Source: Luteolibacter sp. LG18
GTDB taxonomy: Bacteria; Verrucomicrobiota; Verrucomicrobiia; Verrucomicrobiales; Akkermansiaceae
Length of the DNA stretch: 64,000 nucleotides
Direction of reading: 5' to 3'
NCBI RefSeq assembly: GCF_036322585.1
Contig: NZ_AP024600.1
Coordinates: 2,108,001 to 2,172,000, forward strand
The translations under genes were made by a program, and so were the position numbers. Within the stretch, counting starts at the first letter, position 1, and each line of letters begins with the position of its first letter. The notes beneath the pieces were generated by a model. That model was not told the DNA's origin and did not search any database. It saw only the letters and a list, made by a program, of their open reading frames with translations. Of this stretch, positions 53,435-64,000 are shown piece by piece.

Positions 53435-53530
53435 ACTGGGAGTAGGGACATTCTTGTCCCGTTTTCAAAAATACCCAGCTCTGCTGGCAAACATTCAAGA
53501 GACGGGACAGGAATGTCCCTACTCCCAGTC
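53435..53530 (+). repeat. Inverted pair of REP elements
   Basis: The left copy (53435-53466) contains GGGACATTCTTGTCCC. The right copy (53499-53530) is its inverse, GGGACAGGAATGTCCC, with matching flanks CTGGGAGTA and TACTCCCAG. About 32 bases separate them, giving a BIME-like unit. They are of the same family as the copies at 59565-59668, 62683-62714 and 63432-63463. The right end touches the stop codon of the SGNH gene at 53529. Confidence 0.9.
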
Positions 53531-57773: not shown

Positions 57774-59561
57774 ATGCAAACGACCGACTGGTTGCAGTTC
57801 TCCCTCTTCATCGGCCTGCTCGCCCTGATCACGAAGCCGATCGGGATCTATCTCCACCGGGTCCTCGATCCGGCTGGGAAAACGTTCCTCGATCCCGTGA
57901 TCCGCCCGTTCGAGCGGCTGACCTACCGGCTGATGGGCGTGGACCCGGCCAGGGAGCACGATTGGAAGGGTTACACCTTCGCCATGCTGTTCTTCAGTCT
58001 GGTGGGGATGCTCTTCACCTACGCGGTGCTGCGGCTCCAGGACCTCCTGCCGCTGAACCCGCAGGGCCTACCGGGCCTGGGGCACGCGCTGGCGTTCAAT
58101 ACCGCCGCCAGCTTCACGACCAACACCAACTGGCAGAGCTACGGGGGCGAAGGGACGATGTCCTATTTCTCGCAGATGGTAGCGCTGACGATCCACAACT
58201 TCACCTCGGCGGCGGTGGGGATCGCCATCGCGGCGGCGCTGGTCCGCGGGATCGCCCGCCACTCCGCCGCCACGCTGGGGAACTTCTGGGTCGATCTGGT
58301 CCGGGTGACCTACTACCTGCTGGTGCCGCTCAGCCTGGTGTTCGCGGTGTTCCTCGTCTCGCAGGGGATGATCCAGAACTTCAAGCCGTATGACACGGCG
58401 AAGCTGGTCGAGCCGCAGGTGGTGGAAGTGGCGGTGACGAATGCGTCCGGACAGGGTGTTACCGAGAAGAAGACCCTCACCGAGCAGACCATCGTGCAGG
58501 GCCCGATGGCGTCCCAAGCCGCGATCAAGATGCTCGGTACCAACGGCGGCGGATACACCAATGCGAACGCGGCCCACCCGTTCGAGAACCCCACGCCGCT
58601 TTCCAACTTCGTGCAGATGCTTTCGATCTTCGCGATCGGCAGCGGTCTGACCTGGTATCTCGGCAAATGCACCGGCAACCAAGCGCACGGCTGGTCGGTG
58701 TGGGCGGCGATGATGATCCTCTTCACCGCGGGCACGCTCGCGTGTTGGTGGGCGGAGGCGAAGGGCAACCCGATCCATCAGTCGCTGGGACTCATCGCGG
58801 CCGATGGCAATTTGGAGGGCAAGGAGGTGCGTTTCGGCATTTTCCACTCCGCGCTCTTTGCCACCGTGACCACCTCGGCGTCGTGCGGCGCGGTCAATGC
58901 GATGCACGATTCTTTCACCGCCATCGGCGGGTTGGTGCCGCTGTTCATGATGGAACTCGGCGAGGTGGTGATCGGCGGTGTTGGCGCGGGGCTCTACGGC
59001 ATGCTGGTGTTCGTGGTGCTGGCGGTGTTCATCGCCGGGCTGATGGTCGGCCGCACGCCGGAGTATCTGGGTAAGAAGATCCAGGCCTTCGAGGTGAAGA
59101 TGGCGATGCTTTCGCTGCTGGTGCTCACCGCCACGATCCTCGGCTTCACCGCCTGGGCCGCCGCCTCGCCGTGGGGGCAGGCCGGATTGAACAACGCCGG
59201 ACCGCACGGATTCAGCGAGATGCTCTACGCCTACAGTTCCGCCACCGCCAACAACGGCAGCGCCTTCGCCGGGTTGACCGCCACGCCGGCCGATGGCGAT
59301 CCGCATTACAATGTGACGCTCGGTCTCGCGATGCTCATCGGGCGCTTCCTGATGATCGTGCCGATTTTGGCGATGGCTGGCTCGCTGGCGAAGAAGAAGT
59401 TCTCGCCGCCCAGCGCGGGCACCTTCCCGGTATCCGGCACGACGTTCACGGTGCTCTTGATCGGCACGGTACTGCTGGTCGGCGCGTTGAACTTCCTGCC
59501 TGCCCTCGCGCTGGGCCCGATCGTCGAGCACTTCCTGATGCTGAAGGGCGCGTTGTTCTAA
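57774..59561 (+). CDS. kdpA: Potassium-transporting ATPase subunit A
   Basis: The protein has 595 aa and about ten membrane segments. It forms the potassium channel-like part of KdpFABC. The four selectivity-filter-like loops are visible: SFTTNTNWQSYGGE, MLGTNGGGYTNANA, TTSASCGAVNAMHD and YSSATANNGSAFAG. The length is normal. Directly after its stop comes an inverted pair of REP elements that separates it from kdpB. In most genomes kdpA and kdpB are almost contiguous, so this is an insertion. Confidence 0.97.
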   Translation: MQTTDWLQFSLFIGLLALITKPIGIYLHRVLDPAGKTFLDPVIRPFERLTYRLMGVDPAREHDWKGYTFAMLFFSLVGMLFTYAVLRLQDLLPLNPQGLPGLGHALAFNTAASFTTNTNWQSYGGEGTMSYFSQMVALTIHNFTSAAVGIAIAAALVRGIARHSAATLGNFWVDLVRVTYYLLVPLSLVFAVFLVSQGMIQNFKPYDTAKLVEPQVVEVAVTNASGQGVTEKKTLTEQTIVQGPMASQAAIKMLGTNGGGYTNANAAHPFENPTPLSNFVQMLSIFAIGSGLTWYLGKCTGNQAHGWSVWAAMMILFTAGTLACWWAEAKGNPIHQSLGLIAADGNLEGKEVRFGIFHSALFATVTTSASCGAVNAMHDSFTAIGGLVPLFMMELGEVVIGGVGAGLYGMLVFVVLAVFIAGLMVGRTPEYLGKKIQAFEVKMAMLSLLVLTATILGFTAWAAASPWGQAGLNNAGPHGFSEMLYAYSSATANNGSAFAGLTATPADGDPHYNVTLGLAMLIGRFLMIVPILAMAGSLAKKKFSPPSAGTFPVSGTTFTVLLIGTVLLVGALNFLPALALGPIVEHFLMLKGALF

Positions 59562-59564
59562 CGG

Positions 59565-59668
59565 CCCAGGGAGCAAGGACATTCCTGTCCTTGTTCAACC
59601 TCTCCGAGACTCACTTCGATTTCCGAACCTCAAGAAACAAGGACAGGAATGTCCTTGCTCCCAGTCAT
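59565..59668 (+). repeat. Inverted pair of REP elements between kdpA and kdpB
   Basis: The left copy (59565-59596) has the palindromic core AAGGACATTCCTGTCCTT. The right copy (59636-59668) is its inverse, AAGGACAGGAATGTCCTT. Both carry GGGAGC or GCTCCC at the outer side. The unit fills the whole gap between the two pump genes. The right copy contains the ATG (59649) that is in frame with kdpB. Confidence 0.92.
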
Positions 59669-61688
59669 GTCCCATCAATCTCCATCCCTCTTTGACCGGT
59701 CGATCCTGGTGCCCGCGATTGGCGGAGCTTTCAAGAAGCTCGATCCGCGGCTCATGATCCAGAACCCGGTGATGTTCGTCACCCAGGTCGGCGCGGTGCT
59801 GACCACCGTGGCGGTTTTCACCTCGCCGACCGACCACGGGTTCATCCTCCAGCTCGCGGTGTGGTTGTGGTTCACGGTGCTGTTCGCGAACTTCGCCGAG
59901 GCCATCGCCGAAGGCCGCGGCAAGGCCCAGGCCGACAGCCTGCGCAAGGCGCGGAAGGACACCGTCGCGCGGCGCTTGAAAAACGGCCGCGAGGAACAGG
60001 TGCCCGCGCCGATGTTGGAAAAGGGCGACCATGTCGTCTGCGAAACCAACGACGTGATCCCCGCCGATGGCGAGGTGATCGAAGGCATCGCCAGCGTGGA
60101 TGAGGCCGCCATCACCGGGGAATCCGCGCCCGTGATCCGGGAGAGCGGTGGCGACCGCAGCGCCGTGACCGGCGGCACCCGCGTGATCAGCGACCGCATC
60201 GTGATCCGCATCACTTCGGAAAAGGGCAATACCTTCCTCGACCGGATGATCTCGATGGTGGAGGGCGCGAAGCGGCAGAAGACACCGAACGAAATCGCGC
60301 TCACCATTTTGCTGTCCGCGATGACGCTGATCTTCCTGCTGGTCTGCATCACGCTGAAACCTTTCGGCGCTTACGCGGGCATGGAGTTCACCCTTCCGGT
60401 GCTGGTCGCGCTGCTGGTGTGCCTCATCCCGACGACCATTGGTGGCCTGCTCAGTGCCATCGGCATCAGCGGCATCGACCGTTTGATCCGCCGCAATGTG
60501 ATGGCCACCAGCGGACGTGCGGTGGAGGCCGCGGGTGATATCGATGTGCTGCTGCTCGACAAGACCGGCACCATCACCATCGGCAACCGCATGGCCTCGG
60601 ACTTCATCCCGGCTCCGGGCATCACCGAGCAAGTTCTGGCCGACACCGCGCAACTCGCCTCGCTGGCGGATGAAACGCCGGAGGGCCGCAGCATCGTTGT
60701 GCTGGCGAAGGAGAAGTTCAACATCCGCGGCCGCGAACTCCAAGAGCCACACGCCACCTTCGTGCCCTTCACCGCGCAGACCCGCATGAGTGGTGTCGAT
60801 CTGGATGGCCGCAGCATCCGCAAGGGCGCGGCGGAGTCCGTGAAGCAATGGGTGGAGCAACAGGGCGGCGCTTATCCCACCGAGATTGCTCGTGCCGTGG
60901 AGGCATCCGCGCGCGCCGGACGTACGCCGCTGGTGGTGGCGGAAGGATCGAGCGTCCTCGGCGTGGTCGAGCTGAAGGATGTGGTGAAAGGCGGCATCAA
61001 GGAGCGCTTCGCCCAGCTCCGCAAGATGGGCATCCGCACTGTGATGATCACCGGGGACAATCCGATGACCGCTGCCGCCATCGCCGCCGAAGCGGGCGTG
61101 GACGACTTCATGGCCCAGGCCACGCCCGAGGACAAACTGAAGCGCATTCGCTCGGAGCAGGCCGCCGGACACCTCGTCGCCATGACCGGTGACGGCACCA
61201 ATGACGCGCCCGCGCTGGCCCAGGCTGATGTCGGCGTGGCCATGAACACCGGCACCCAGGCCGCGCGCGAGGCGGGCAACATGGTCGATCTCGACAGCAA
61301 TCCGACCAAGCTCATCGAGATCGTGGAGATCGGAAAACAGCTCCTCATGACCCGCGGCTCGCTGACGACCTTCTCCATAGCCAATGACGTGGCGAAGTAC
61401 TTCGCGATCATTCCCGCGATGCTGATGGTGACCTTCCCCGCGATCTCGCCGCTCAACATCATGGGCCTGGTTTCGCCACAGAGCGCTATCCTCAGCGCCG
61501 TGATCTTCAACGCGCTCGTCATCATCGCGCTCATTCCTCTGGCGCTGAAAGGTGTGCCTTACAAGGCCATGGGCGCAGCCGCCGTGCTGCGCCGGAATCT
61601 TCTCGTCTACGGACTCGGCGGCCTAGTGGTGCCCTTTGTCGGCATCAAGGCCATCGACCTTCTCATCACCACCCTTCACTTCGCCTGA
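59649..61688 (+). CDS. kdpB: Potassium-transporting P-type ATPase subunit B
   Basis: The protein has 679 aa if it starts at ATG 59649, or 673 from ATG 59667. The phosphorylation motif [12 protein letters not shown] has Asp304. [20 protein letters not shown] and the membrane segments are those of KdpB. The start at 59649 lies inside a REP element and adds MSLLPV. It has AAGGA at a suitable distance, while the ATG at 59667 has no Shine-Dalgarno. I therefore favour 59649, which means the repeat supplies the ribosome-binding site and first codons. The pump takes up K+ at low external potassium. Confidence 0.95.
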
Positions 61689-61690
61689 TC

Positions 61691-62272
61691 ATGAAAGCCA
61701 TCGTTTCCGAACTCCGTGGCGCCATCGTCTCCACCGCCGTGCTCGCCGTGGTCTGCTGCGGGCTCTATCCCGCCGCCGTCACCGGCATCTCCCGCCTCTG
61801 CTTCAAGGCGAAGGCGGACGGCAGCCTGATCGTGGACAAGGACGGCACCTTCCGCGGTTCCGCCCTGCTCGGCCAGAGCTTCAGCGGGGAGAAATACTTC
61901 CAATCCCGTCCGTCCGCCGCGGGCAATGGCTATGACGCCTCCGCCTCCAGCGGCAGCAACCTCGGGCCCACCTCGCGGAAGCTGGCCGATCAGATCCAGG
62001 AGCGCGTGGCTTCGTATCGGGCCGCCAATGGTTTGGCCGCTGACCAGCCCGTTCCGGCCGATGCGGTCACCGCGTCCGCCAGCGGCCTCGATCCCCACAT
62101 CAGTCCGGCCAATGCCGCGCTCCAGGTCGCCCGGGTCGCCAAGGCCCGCAACCTGCCCGCGGAAAAAGTCCGTGAACTGGTTGCGGCGAACACGGATACG
62201 GAGGACCTTGGCTTGCTGGGGGACCCCGGAGTGAACGTGCTGAAGCTGAACCTGGCTCTCGATAACCTCTAA
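61691..62272 (+). CDS. kdpC: Potassium-transporting ATPase subunit C
   Basis: The protein has 193 aa with a single N-terminal membrane segment (GAIVSTAVLAVVCCGLYPAA). The outer domain carries FRGSALLGQSFSGEKYFQ, SSGSNLGPTSRKL and, near the end, DPHISPANAALQVARVAKAR and VLKLNLALDNL, all usual for KdpC. It assists ion and ATP affinity of KdpFABC. It begins three bases after kdpB and is followed by a second KdpC-like gene. Confidence 0.96.
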   Translation: MKAIVSELRGAIVSTAVLAVVCCGLYPAAVTGISRLCFKAKADGSLIVDKDGTFRGSALLGQSFSGEKYFQSRPSAAGNGYDASASSGSNLGPTSRKLADQIQERVASYRAANGLAADQPVPADAVTASASGLDPHISPANAALQVARVAKARNLPAEKVRELVAANTDTEDLGLLGDPGVNVLKLNLALDNL

Positions 62273-62284
62273 CCGCCACACACC

Positions 62285-62680
62285 ATGAACCCGATCCGTC
62301 TCAAACTCGCCGTTGTTCTCGCCGTCGCCATCGCGTTGGTGGCGATCGGCTTGGTGCAATGGAAGCATCGGGATGGCCTCTCGATTCCGGATGAGAAGGT
62401 GGCCGGAGTGGAGTTGCTCGCAAAGACCCAGAGCGGGCCGGGCTATTTCCATGCCGCCAATGAGTCCACCGCCGAAGATGGTGGTCCATGGATCACCCCG
62501 GACGAGGCGAACGCGCAACTCGACCGCGTGGTGTCGGTACGGAAGCTCTCCGGGGCGGGGATGGAGAAGGTGAAGCTGCTCGTTTCCAAACTCACTGAAC
62601 CGCATCCCTCGCGCTTGGTCGGCGGCGAGCGCATTCCGCTCGTGCGGCTCAATTTGGCTCTCGACGAGATCAAGGAGTGA
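62285..62680 (+). CDS. Compact KdpC-like paralogue
   Basis: The protein has 131 aa: one N-terminal membrane segment (LAVVLAVAIALVAIGLVQW), then SGPGYFHAANEST, which aligns with SGEKYFQSRPSAA of KdpC. WITPDEANAQLDRVVSVRKL then matches KdpC's HISPANAALQVARVAKAR, and IPLVRLNLALDEI matches VNVLKLNLALDNL. The central part of KdpC is missing. It is thus a short, diverged second KdpC, 12 bases after kdpC and part of the operon. It might replace or modulate KdpC, or be a decaying duplicate; the frame is intact and the key ends are conserved. Confidence 0.8.
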   Translation: MNPIRLKLAVVLAVAIALVAIGLVQWKHRDGLSIPDEKVAGVELLAKTQSGPGYFHAANESTAEDGGPWITPDEANAQLDRVVSVRKLSGAGMEKVKLLVSKLTEPHPSRLVGGERIPLVRLNLALDEIKE

Positions 62681-62682
62681 GC

Positions 62683-62714
62683 CCCAGGGAGCAGGGACAT
62701 TCTTGTCCCTGTTC
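62683..62714 (+). repeat. REP element, left of the RAYT gene
   Basis: It contains GGGACATTCTTGTCCC inside CCCAGGGAGCA and TGTTC flanks, beginning three bases after the stop of the KdpC-like gene. The orientation is the same as the left copies of the other pairs. Confidence 0.9.
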
Positions 62715-62732
62715 TTCTGTTGGAAAAACGTT

Positions 62733-63404
62733 ATGAATGGTTCCGCACGCTTCATGGAAACCACTCCCAAATTCTGGAATCCGAACGAGGAAATCGCCAG
62801 ACACGGAGTCCATCTGCCGCATTGGCAGCAAGACCATTCCACATTCTTCCTGACCTTCCGGCTGGCGGACTCGATTCCCCAATCCAAGTTGGAGAAGTGG
62901 AAGGAGGAGCGGGTCGTCTGGTTGGAGATGCATCCGAAACCGTGGACCGAGGATGAAGAGCGGGAATACCACACCCGCTTTTCAAATCTGATCGAGCGAT
63001 GGCTGGATGGAGGGGAGGGCGAGTGCCTGTTGGGGCGACCGGCAGCAGCCTCAGCCTTGAGGAAGGTGCTGCTCACCAAGGATCAGGAGCGCTATACCCA
63101 GCACTCCTTCGTGATCATGCCGAATCATCTTCATGTTCTGGCGTCGATTGGAACGGCTGAGACCCTTGAGGGCTTGGTGAAGATTTGGAAGGGAGCGTCA
63201 TCGCGGAGAGTGAACGTGGCGTTGGCTCGTTCCGGGGAGCTTTGGCAGGCCAATTACTACGACCGCTTGATTCGTGATTCGGAGCATTTTTGGAACTGCG
63301 CCCGCTACATCCGACGGAATCCGGTCAAAGCGCGTCTTAGTGCCGGGCAATACGTGCTCCATGAATCAGATTGCGTGAGGGAGGCTTTGAATACCTTGAG
63401 ATGA
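62733..63404 (+). CDS. REP-associated tyrosine transposase (Y1, IS200-like)
   Basis: The protein has 223 aa. The HUH motif is HLH at 132-134 in VIMPNHLHVL, and the catalytic tyrosine is Tyr192 in ARYIRRNPVKARLS, the standard block of TnpA_REP/RAYT proteins. HGVHLPHWQQDHSTFFLTF at the N-terminus and LWQANYYDRLIRDSEHFWN are also typical. RAYTs cut and copy REP palindromes as single strands; the matching palindromes lie on both sides. ATG 62733 has a weak GGA ahead; ATG 62754 is an alternative. The stop overlaps an in-frame upstream ATG of kdpD (63401). Confidence 0.92.
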   Translation: MNGSARFMETTPKFWNPNEEIARHGVHLPHWQQDHSTFFLTFRLADSIPQSKLEKWKEERVVWLEMHPKPWTEDEEREYHTRFSNLIERWLDGGEGECLLGRPAAASALRKVLLTKDQERYTQHSFVIMPNHLHVLASIGTAETLEGLVKIWKGASSRRVNVALARSGELWQANYYDRLIRDSEHFWNCARYIRRNPVKARLSAGQYVLHESDCVREALNTLR

Positions 63405-63431
63405 AGGTTTTCCGTTCAGATGACCCTTCAG

Positions 63432-63463
63432 ACACAAGGACAGGAATGTCCTTGCTCCCTGAT
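63432..63463 (+). repeat. REP element, right of the RAYT gene, overlapping kdpD start
   Basis: It has the core AAGGACAGGAATGTCCTT with the outer GCTCCC. It is inverted relative to the left copy at 62683. Its ATG at 63446 is in frame with kdpD. Confidence 0.9.
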
Positions 63464-64000
63464 GGCCGTCCCGATCCCGATGCGCTGCTCGCGCAGGTCC
63501 AGCGTGAGGAAAACCAGGGCAAGCGCGGCCGCTTGTTCCTGTTCCTCGGGATGTGCCCGGGAGTGGGGAAAACCTACGCGATGCTGCTCGCCGCGCGCCA
63601 GCGTCGGAAGGAAGGACTGGAGGTGCTGGTGGGCGTGGTGGAAACCCACGGCCGCGTGGAGACCGAGGCCTTGCTCGACGGGCTGGAGGTGATGCCGCGC
63701 AAGAAGCTCTCCCACGGCGGCCACCTGTTGGAGGAGTTCGATCTCGATGCCGCGCTGGCCCGCCGCCCGGACCTGCTGCTGGTGGACGAGCTGGCGCACA
63801 CCAACGCGCCAGGCACCCGCCACCGCAAGCGCTACCAGGACGTCATCGAATTGCTGGACGCCGGGATCGATGTCTGCACCACCGTCAACGTCCAGCACAT
63901 CGAGAGCCAGGTGGACATCGTGCGTCAGATCACCGGCGTGGCGGTGATGGAAACGGTGCCGGACTCGATGCTCGACCGCGCGCACGAGATCCAGCTCGTG
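63446..64000 (+). CDS. kdpD: KdpD sensor kinase, N-terminal part (cut by window edge)
   Basis: At least 185 codons are present. RPDPDALLAQVQREE and FLGMCPGVGKTYAMLLAARQ (Walker A) are followed by LLVDELAHTNAPGTRHRK and CTTVNVQHIES, which identify the KdpD N-terminal domain. KdpD senses potassium limitation and passes phosphate to KdpE to switch on kdp. The frame is open from ATG 63401, which overlaps the transposase stop, and from ATG 63446 inside the REP, which has AAGGA five bases ahead. The first conserved residues follow just after the REP, so 63446 is preferred. The histidine-kinase part lies beyond the window. Confidence 0.92.
   Translation, partial: MSLLPDGRPDPDALLAQVQREENQGKRGRLFLFLGMCPGVGKTYAMLLAARQRRKEGLEVLVGVVETHGRVETEALLDGLEVMPRKKLSHGGHLLEEFDLDAALARRPDLLLVDELAHTNAPGTRHRKRYQDVIELLDAGIDVCTTVNVQHIESQVDIVRQITGVAVMETVPDSMLDRAHEIQLV

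Follow-up and report, generated by a model that had tools for sequence, protein, structure and literature searches.

How does a gene within an operon begin its translation once a mobile element has come to lie against its start? The kdp operon of Luteolibacter sp. LG18 raises this question, as a RAYT (REP-associated tyrosine transposase) gene flanked by REPs sits immediately ahead of kdpD, and a further pair of REPs lies between kdpA and kdpB. The DNA analysed here, referred to as the window, is a stretch of 64,000 nucleotides from this genome (NZ_AP024600.1, positions 2,108,001 to 2,172,000, forward strand). We favour, at roughly two chances in three, the explanation that a REPtron and a separate REPIN have been inserted into the operon, and that kdpD is now read from a start carried by the REPtron, most likely the ATG of its REP.

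Layout of the kdp operon

The genes and repeats of the operon are collected in Table 1. An earlier note on this DNA, made from the letters alone, had placed a Y1 transposase with facing REPs between a KdpC-like gene and kdpD, and a REP pair between kdpA and kdpB. Both descriptions are borne out, the former by the RAYT open reading frame, its match to Y1_Tnp and the inverted REPs around it, and the latter by a perfect inverted repeat of 27 nt. The full kdpD reading frame, which extends past the window, was found in locus L038 of the same genome.

Table 1. Features of the kdp operon, in coordinates of the window
Feature	Position	Strand	Evidence and remarks
kdpA	57774..59561	+	NCBIfam kdpA, 694 bits; stop 7 nt before first arm of REP pair
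REPIN left-arm REP (kdpA-kdpB)	59569..59595	-	GCAA head; 0 mismatches in 18-nt core
REPIN right-arm REP (kdpA-kdpB)	59636..59662	+	AAGGA-N5-ATG; ATG 59649 in kdpB frame
kdpB, native ATG 59667	59667..61688	+	NCBIfam kdpB, 1053 bits; start motif aligns with relatives
kdpC	61691..62272	+	Pfam KdpC, E=9e-71
kdpC2, second, truncated KdpC-like gene	62285..62680	+	Pfam KdpC, E=8e-11; profile positions 125-182 of 182
REPtron left REP	62685..62712	-	GCAG head, GGGACAAGAATGTCCC core; fold -24.9 kcal/mol, z -4.4
RAYT, 216 aa	62754..63404	+	His125, His127, Tyr185; stop TGA overlaps ATG 63401 (ATGA)
REPtron right REP	63434..63461	+	AAGGA 63436-63440; ATG 63446-63448 in kdpD frame; hairpin -11.9 kcal/mol
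kdpD from REP ATG (MSLLPDGRPDPDALL...)	63446..64000, runs past window	+	Pfam KdpD, E=4e-70; 898 codons in total

The second KdpC-like gene, kdpC2, is by its Pfam match a genuine but truncated KdpC that retains the C-terminal third of the family only. Homologues occur in relatives G001, G072, G027 and G032, and the gene precedes kdpD in several species (L213, L219, L221 and L230). It is a fast-evolving gene, with a dN/dS of 0.325 (dS being close to saturation) and 53% identity to the G001 counterpart, and its product is possibly an accessory subunit. KdpB finds its nearest named match, at 89%, in an Akkermansiaceae metagenome bin. A plasmid source for the DNA was considered and rejected: of 65 matching plasmid records, 64 show 60-80% identity and one 80-90%, and none matches over 80% of the query.

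The RAYT transposase

The RAYT frame extends without interruption from TTG 62703 as far as its stop codon (63402-63404), and ATG 62754 is the likely start because three paralogues from the same genome align from there. Counted from this codon, the catalytic residues that the earlier reader had numbered HLH 132-134 and Tyr192 (a numbering that fits ATG 62733) become His125, His127 and Tyr185. These three residues, together with Asn189 and Pro190, are invariant across 21 aligned RAYTs, comprising the one in the window and 20 others of the genus. The protein thus carries both the HUH motif and the catalytic tyrosine of IS200/IS605-type Y1 transposases, and its gene is flanked on either side by inverted REPs whose family is spread over the genome. 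It matches Pfam Y1_Tnp (E=9e-7), and the NCBIfam RAYT model, REP_Tyr_transpos, matched all 21 RAYTs of the genus set, with the window RAYT at 79.3 bits falling just below the cut-off of 80.

When the 21 sequences are used as a profile, the top match in the PDB is TnpA_REP of Escherichia coli (4ER8, E=4e-9), whereas the single RAYT sequence as query ranked ISDra2 TnpA before 4ER8. The predicted model (pLDDT 88) also finds 4ER8 as its top Foldseek match (E=6.5e-5), yet identity in that fold match is only 14%. The alignment starts at profile position 97 and at residue 33 of 4ER8, which makes the N-terminal part of the RAYT about 60 residues longer. Besides TnpA_REP, the TnpA proteins of ISDra2 and IS608 count among the closest known systems. 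Judging by its family, the enzyme presumably mobilizes these REPs, or did so in the past, through HUH-type cleavage of single strands.

Seven matches to the window RAYT, itself counted, are present in the genome. The three paralogues have REPs around them and are 64-65% identical to the kdp RAYT but 79-88% identical among themselves, a pattern that rules out the kdp RAYT as a very recent copy. One of them (L084) ends in LKE followed by a TAG inside a REP, and another (L078) ends in LKE and a stop before a decayed hairpin. Outside this genome, identities reach 53% among the matches listed. The nearest relative, G001, has two RAYT matches only (38-39% identity), yet it holds 18 exact REP cores.

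A dispersed REP family that lies close to gene ends

The two REPs that flank the RAYT are inverted, 28 nt long and 89% complementary. Five matches to the 18-nt core (at most 3 mismatches) occur in the window, compared with a mean of 0.02 in shuffled sequence, and none of 100 shuffles reached five. Throughout the genome (5.80 Mb, one contig), the pattern GGGACANGAATGTCCC is matched 62+67 = 129 times with at most 2 mismatches, versus 3+2 times for the reversed control pattern. The genome-wide count proposed in the earlier note thus reveals a family of more than 100 copies, and the idea that these REPs might be absent elsewhere falls away.

Our REP analyses cover at least 117 REPs of this genome, with frames and stops called by a codon-usage score whose training set was the window or the loci. 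GTAG heads are found on 57 of these REPs, GCAG on 36, GCAA on 12 and other heads on 12; the four kdp REPs all bear GCAA or GCAG. Many sites show the arrangement of a REPIN, a minus-strand match followed by a plus-strand match about 35-100 nt away, and the kdpA-kdpB gap holds a perfect pair. REPINs are reportedly the subject of work by Bertels and Rainey in 2011. Another REP pair lies in the window at 53447-53517.

Members of the family tend to lie close to gene ends. Sixty-six of the at least 117 REPs follow a co-oriented gene, and in 60 of these the stop codon is within 30 nt before the hairpin, compared with 72 of 425 intergenic controls for which a co-oriented stop was located. In six of the 66 the REP's own TAG is the stop of the gene, giving proteins that end in KE. 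Among relatives the stop is within 30 nt before the hairpin in 12/15 cases in G001, 5/7 in G028 and 12/14 in G024, but in only 2/13 in G025 and 2/6 in G048, and closeness to stops is therefore not uniform in the genus. The earlier note had started from the premise that REPs avoid the interiors of operons. That premise is not upheld: Di Nocera et al. (2013; PMC3733652), in the portion of the paper drawn on here, find REPs chiefly between ORFs in unidirectional or convergent arrangement and near their 3' ends, and the same pattern is seen here. TAG stops supplied by REPs and the nearness of REPs to 3' ends were both already published there.

Two further observations concern the sites occupied. 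At many loci of G024 (L278-L294), G028 (L273-L277 and L215) and G025 (L295-L319) the foot of the REP reads TAAGGAG or TGAGGAG, in which a stop codon runs directly into a Shine-Dalgarno (SD)-like string; this may mark a preferred landing site. The REP loci L046 and L103 (870 kb and 5476 kb), as well as L047 and L102 (880 kb and 5466 kb), have identical flanks in opposite orientation and are mirror-placed, which suggests an inverted duplicated segment.

The insertions appear confined to one lineage of those sampled

We compared 19 other kdp stretches of the genus, 14 of which span kdpC and kdpD; three of these 14 (L226, L228 and L229) are divergent kdp loci with another gene order. No match to the RAYT occurs in any of the 19 stretches, including the 14 kdpC-kdpD junctions, and the kdpA-kdpB gaps of 13 other operons are free of REP-like cores. 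Here 105 nt separate the stop of kdpA from the native ATG of kdpB, versus 8-22 nt in 12 other operons and 222 nt in one. The nearest relative, G001, whose KdpB is 95% identical, lacks a RAYT at the kdpC-kdpD junction and a REP between kdpA and kdpB, and G027 provides an empty-site counterpart, with 8 nt between the kdpC2 stop and the kdpD ATG. By this comparison, both insertions look lineage-specific among the species sampled, this species being represented by one genome. The recent remodelling proposed in the earlier note is accordingly supported, and the alternative it had named, that all relatives share the arrangement, does not apply.

REPs as such have a longer history in this operon. A decayed class-B REP occupies the last kdpD codons both here (3 of 29 positions mismatched; L038:10081-10109, genome 2174080-2174108, just past the window) and in G001 (5 of 29; L213:895-923), whereas 0.79 Mb of control DNA held no REP match with fewer than 9 of 29 mismatches. 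This relic is common to both species, and REPs were therefore in the operon before the two split. The REPtron and the kdpA-kdpB pair would be later than that split, or else were lost in G001. With the relic at its 3' end, kdpD now carries sequence of REP origin at either end.

Insertion between kdpC and kdpD has happened repeatedly in the genus, and the junction, in the manner of an insertion hot spot, has received inserts that differ from species to species. G001 carries a 482-aa gene with no Pfam family (L213 3562-5010), G039 a PIN gene with a Phd/YefM-like partner (L214 4579-5261; the partner scores 26.1 bits, below the cut-off of 29.8), G041 nearly the same DNA as G039, and G027 an amino-acid permease gene (L221 5581-7557). 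A REP pair occupies the junction in G028 (L215) and a variant REP occupies it in G037 (L218). In these last two, the kdpC stop lies within the foot of the REP (AAG GAG TAG; judged by eye in L218), so that KdpC ends in KE.

Origin of the kdpD start codon

In all 11 operons of relatives that were compared, kdpD begins with an ATG located 4-6 codons ahead of a conserved RPDP. That ATG is absent here, where the DNA instead reads from the REP through CTCCCT into GATGGCCGTCCCGAT, in the frame MSLLP-DGRPDPD. As the comparison with relatives shows, the native kdpD start has been lost, and the REPtron must therefore provide the start of kdpD if the gene is used. The right edge of the REPtron is fused at about kdpD codon 3, and it follows from the sequence that kdpD, if made at all, would be read from a start within the REPtron. 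From the RAYT stop to RPDPD, only three starts are available in the kdpD frame: ATG 63401, overlapping that stop, and two codons inside the REP, ATG 63446 and TTG 63452. The most likely start is the REP's own ATG, which the string AAGGA precedes by 5 nt. The start pattern matched 23 native starts at kdpB and kdpD in relatives (a count that omits the L220 kdpB, an off-target match, and the kdpC starts of L213 and L214, the L220 kdpD being unmatched), and none of them has an SD-like string at -18 to -4. The REP therefore brings in such a string, and the type of initiation would change. A REP ATG is in the kdpD frame in G028 as well, where a different REP pair occupies the junction and the native kdpD ATG is retained.

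One difficulty for the REP ATG is that it lies, along with its SD-like string, inside the REP hairpin, which would tend to hide both. The fold is -11.9 kcal/mol with a z of -1.8, and 12 of 200 shuffles are as stable. Reinitiation at ATG 63401 by ribosomes that terminate at the overlapping RAYT stop (TGA 63402-63404) sidesteps this hairpin; kdpD would then be translated with the REP read as coding sequence, and 15 codons (MKVFRSDDPSDTRTG) would be added ahead of MSLLPD. ATG 63401 is in the kdpD frame, as this route demands, but the closest SD-like string, GGGAGG, ends 16 nt before it (judged by eye), the route needs a well-translated RAYT, and the RAYT paralogues have different ends. RAYT-type genes are usually weakly expressed. 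We consider reinitiation unlikely, if a serious contender, and favour the REP ATG over ATG 63401 by about two to one. The two starts predict different N-termini for KdpD, (M)SLLPDGR from the REP ATG and MKVFRSDDPSDTR from reinitiation at ATG 63401. The same hairpin over the new SD-like string and ATG, along with the missing native start, could also be taken to mean that kdpD has been silenced or is decaying since its start was destroyed. This is improbable, as the gene keeps 898 open codons, 92% identity to G001 and an in-frame ATG with AAGGA. Its dN/dS versus G001 is 0.076, a value that covers mostly the time before the insertion.

REP starts look rare elsewhere

Twenty-six of the at least 117 REPs lie upstream of a co-oriented coding frame, and these fall in frames 0, 1 and 2 in 10, 7 and 9 cases, so that in-frame REP starts are not favoured genome-wide. 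Seven REPs are open from their ATG into the gene, and the five outside kdp have a later in-frame ATG before the coding part (judged by eye). In G048, where 32 distinct REPs were found in 30 loci (of 60 places), none of four downstream co-oriented genes is in frame, and neither of two genes downstream of REPs is in frame in G001. On these counts, the idea that REPs serve generally as start codons was rejected, and the replacement of a native start by a REP looks rare. Since there is no frame bias, the in-frame REP ATGs at kdpB, at kdpD and at kdpD of G028 could be chance; the probability of the three as a set, reckoned after the fact, is about 1 in 27.

Locus L277 of G028 (near position 1045) was considered as a second captured start and set aside, as an upstream ATG (MKSALTQ...) is also in frame. 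By eye, a REP pair appears to have been inserted here, in frame, into what is likely the signal peptide of a protein with no Pfam family (MKSALTQ-[REP]-MSTLLIALTGLCLAQ); a start at the REP ATG would make that signal peptide compact.

A broader and rather doubtful proposal is that the REPs of this genus act as portable gene-boundary modules that rewrite where one gene ends and its neighbour begins. One strand would carry a stop signal (AAGGAGTAG, giving proteins that end in KE, or TAA/TGA-GGAG), and the other an AGGA-type string and an ATG in a hairpin. Candidate instances are the kdpC-kdpD junction of G028, with a REP stop for kdpC and an in-frame REP ATG before kdpD, and the REP start of kdpD described here.

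The kdpA-kdpB pair and the effects of the insertions

The REP pair between kdpA and kdpB is predicted to fold as one long hairpin of -57.5 kcal/mol (z -9.7; none of 200 shuffles as stable), spanning from 7 nt past the kdpA stop to 4 nt short of the native kdpB ATG. The in-frame REP ATG 59649 would add MSLLPV to KdpB; the native start, ATG-TCC-CAT, is kept. A hairpin of this kind should break the close coupling of kdpA and kdpB translation. In E. coli, a REP that lies within 15 nt of a stop codon reduces translation (Liang, Rudd and Deutscher 2015, as cited in the part of PMC12306157 drawn on), and by this analogy the output of both kdpA and kdpB may be affected, with the stop-proximal REP perhaps dampening kdpA.

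Two further readings are compatible with the one we favour. Along the lines of the earlier note, the REPs might mainly alter mRNA stability or cause attenuation at the kdpA-kdpB and kdpC-kdpD gaps. Stable hairpins are predicted for the kdpA-kdpB pair and for the left REP of the REPtron, and REP effects on mRNA are named in the consulted sections of PMC3733652, but the kdpD REP hairpin alone is modestly stable, and we hold this to be somewhat unlikely. A real possibility, if short of even odds, is that the insertions are neutral hitchhikers, that the kdp genes still work and that the kdpD fusion is accidental. The closeness of this REP family to stop codons, the absence of a frame bias and the unrelated inserts at the same junction in relatives are all consistent with neutrality. 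However, neutrality leaves the change of start codon standing, and a predicted hairpin as strong as the one beside kdpB is hard to imagine without effect. The favoured reading, REPtron and REPIN insertion followed by initiation of kdpD within the REPtron, has its better-supported consequence at the level of translation, where comparison with relatives indicates that the native kdpD start was replaced by one from the REPtron.

Relation to known RAYT-REP systems

The REPtron itself is of a known, ordinary kind. As in the RAYT-REP systems described in the available parts of Nunvar et al. (2010; PMC2817692) and of PMC3733652, an HUH-Tyr transposase gene lies between inverted REPs, and more than 100 dispersed REPs, many in inverted pairs, hug the 3' ends of genes. 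Several REPtrons per genome, and GTAG repeats in a Verrucomicrobium, had already been reported in those parts. GTAG-head REPs that give TAG stops are likewise known there and are common to this genome, but the kdp REPs have GCAG or GCAA heads. The arms that lie 7 nt past the kdpA stop and 4 nt past the kdpC2 stop resemble in their position the stop-proximal REPs of E. coli (at most 15 nt; PMC12306157, in the text drawn on), although sequence and organism differ.

The fusion to kdpD is unusual. In contrast to the REPtrons in those parts of the sources, this one is situated within an operon, where its outer REP has taken the place of the following gene's start codon. REP DNA as N-terminal codons has parallels in REPs at the 5' ends of ORFs (Di Nocera et al. 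2013, PMC3733652) and in RPE-1 of Rickettsia, cited there. However, the excerpted text of that paper judges many 5' REPs as possibly extragenic, with translation perhaps starting downstream, whereas kdpD here is without any native start. Searches of the open-licence PubMed Central literature turned up no case of a native start codon being replaced by a REP.

REPs have been taken as mostly extragenic sequences that act 3' of genes, and those at 5' ends are often blamed on start misannotation. If our reading of kdpD is correct, repeats regarded as decorations of gene ends can also become gene beginnings. The gene would offer an example, open to direct testing, of how a mobile palindrome turns into a translation initiation region, and the kdp operon of this organism may exemplify how a K+ pump operon copes after the loss of gene-to-gene coupling.
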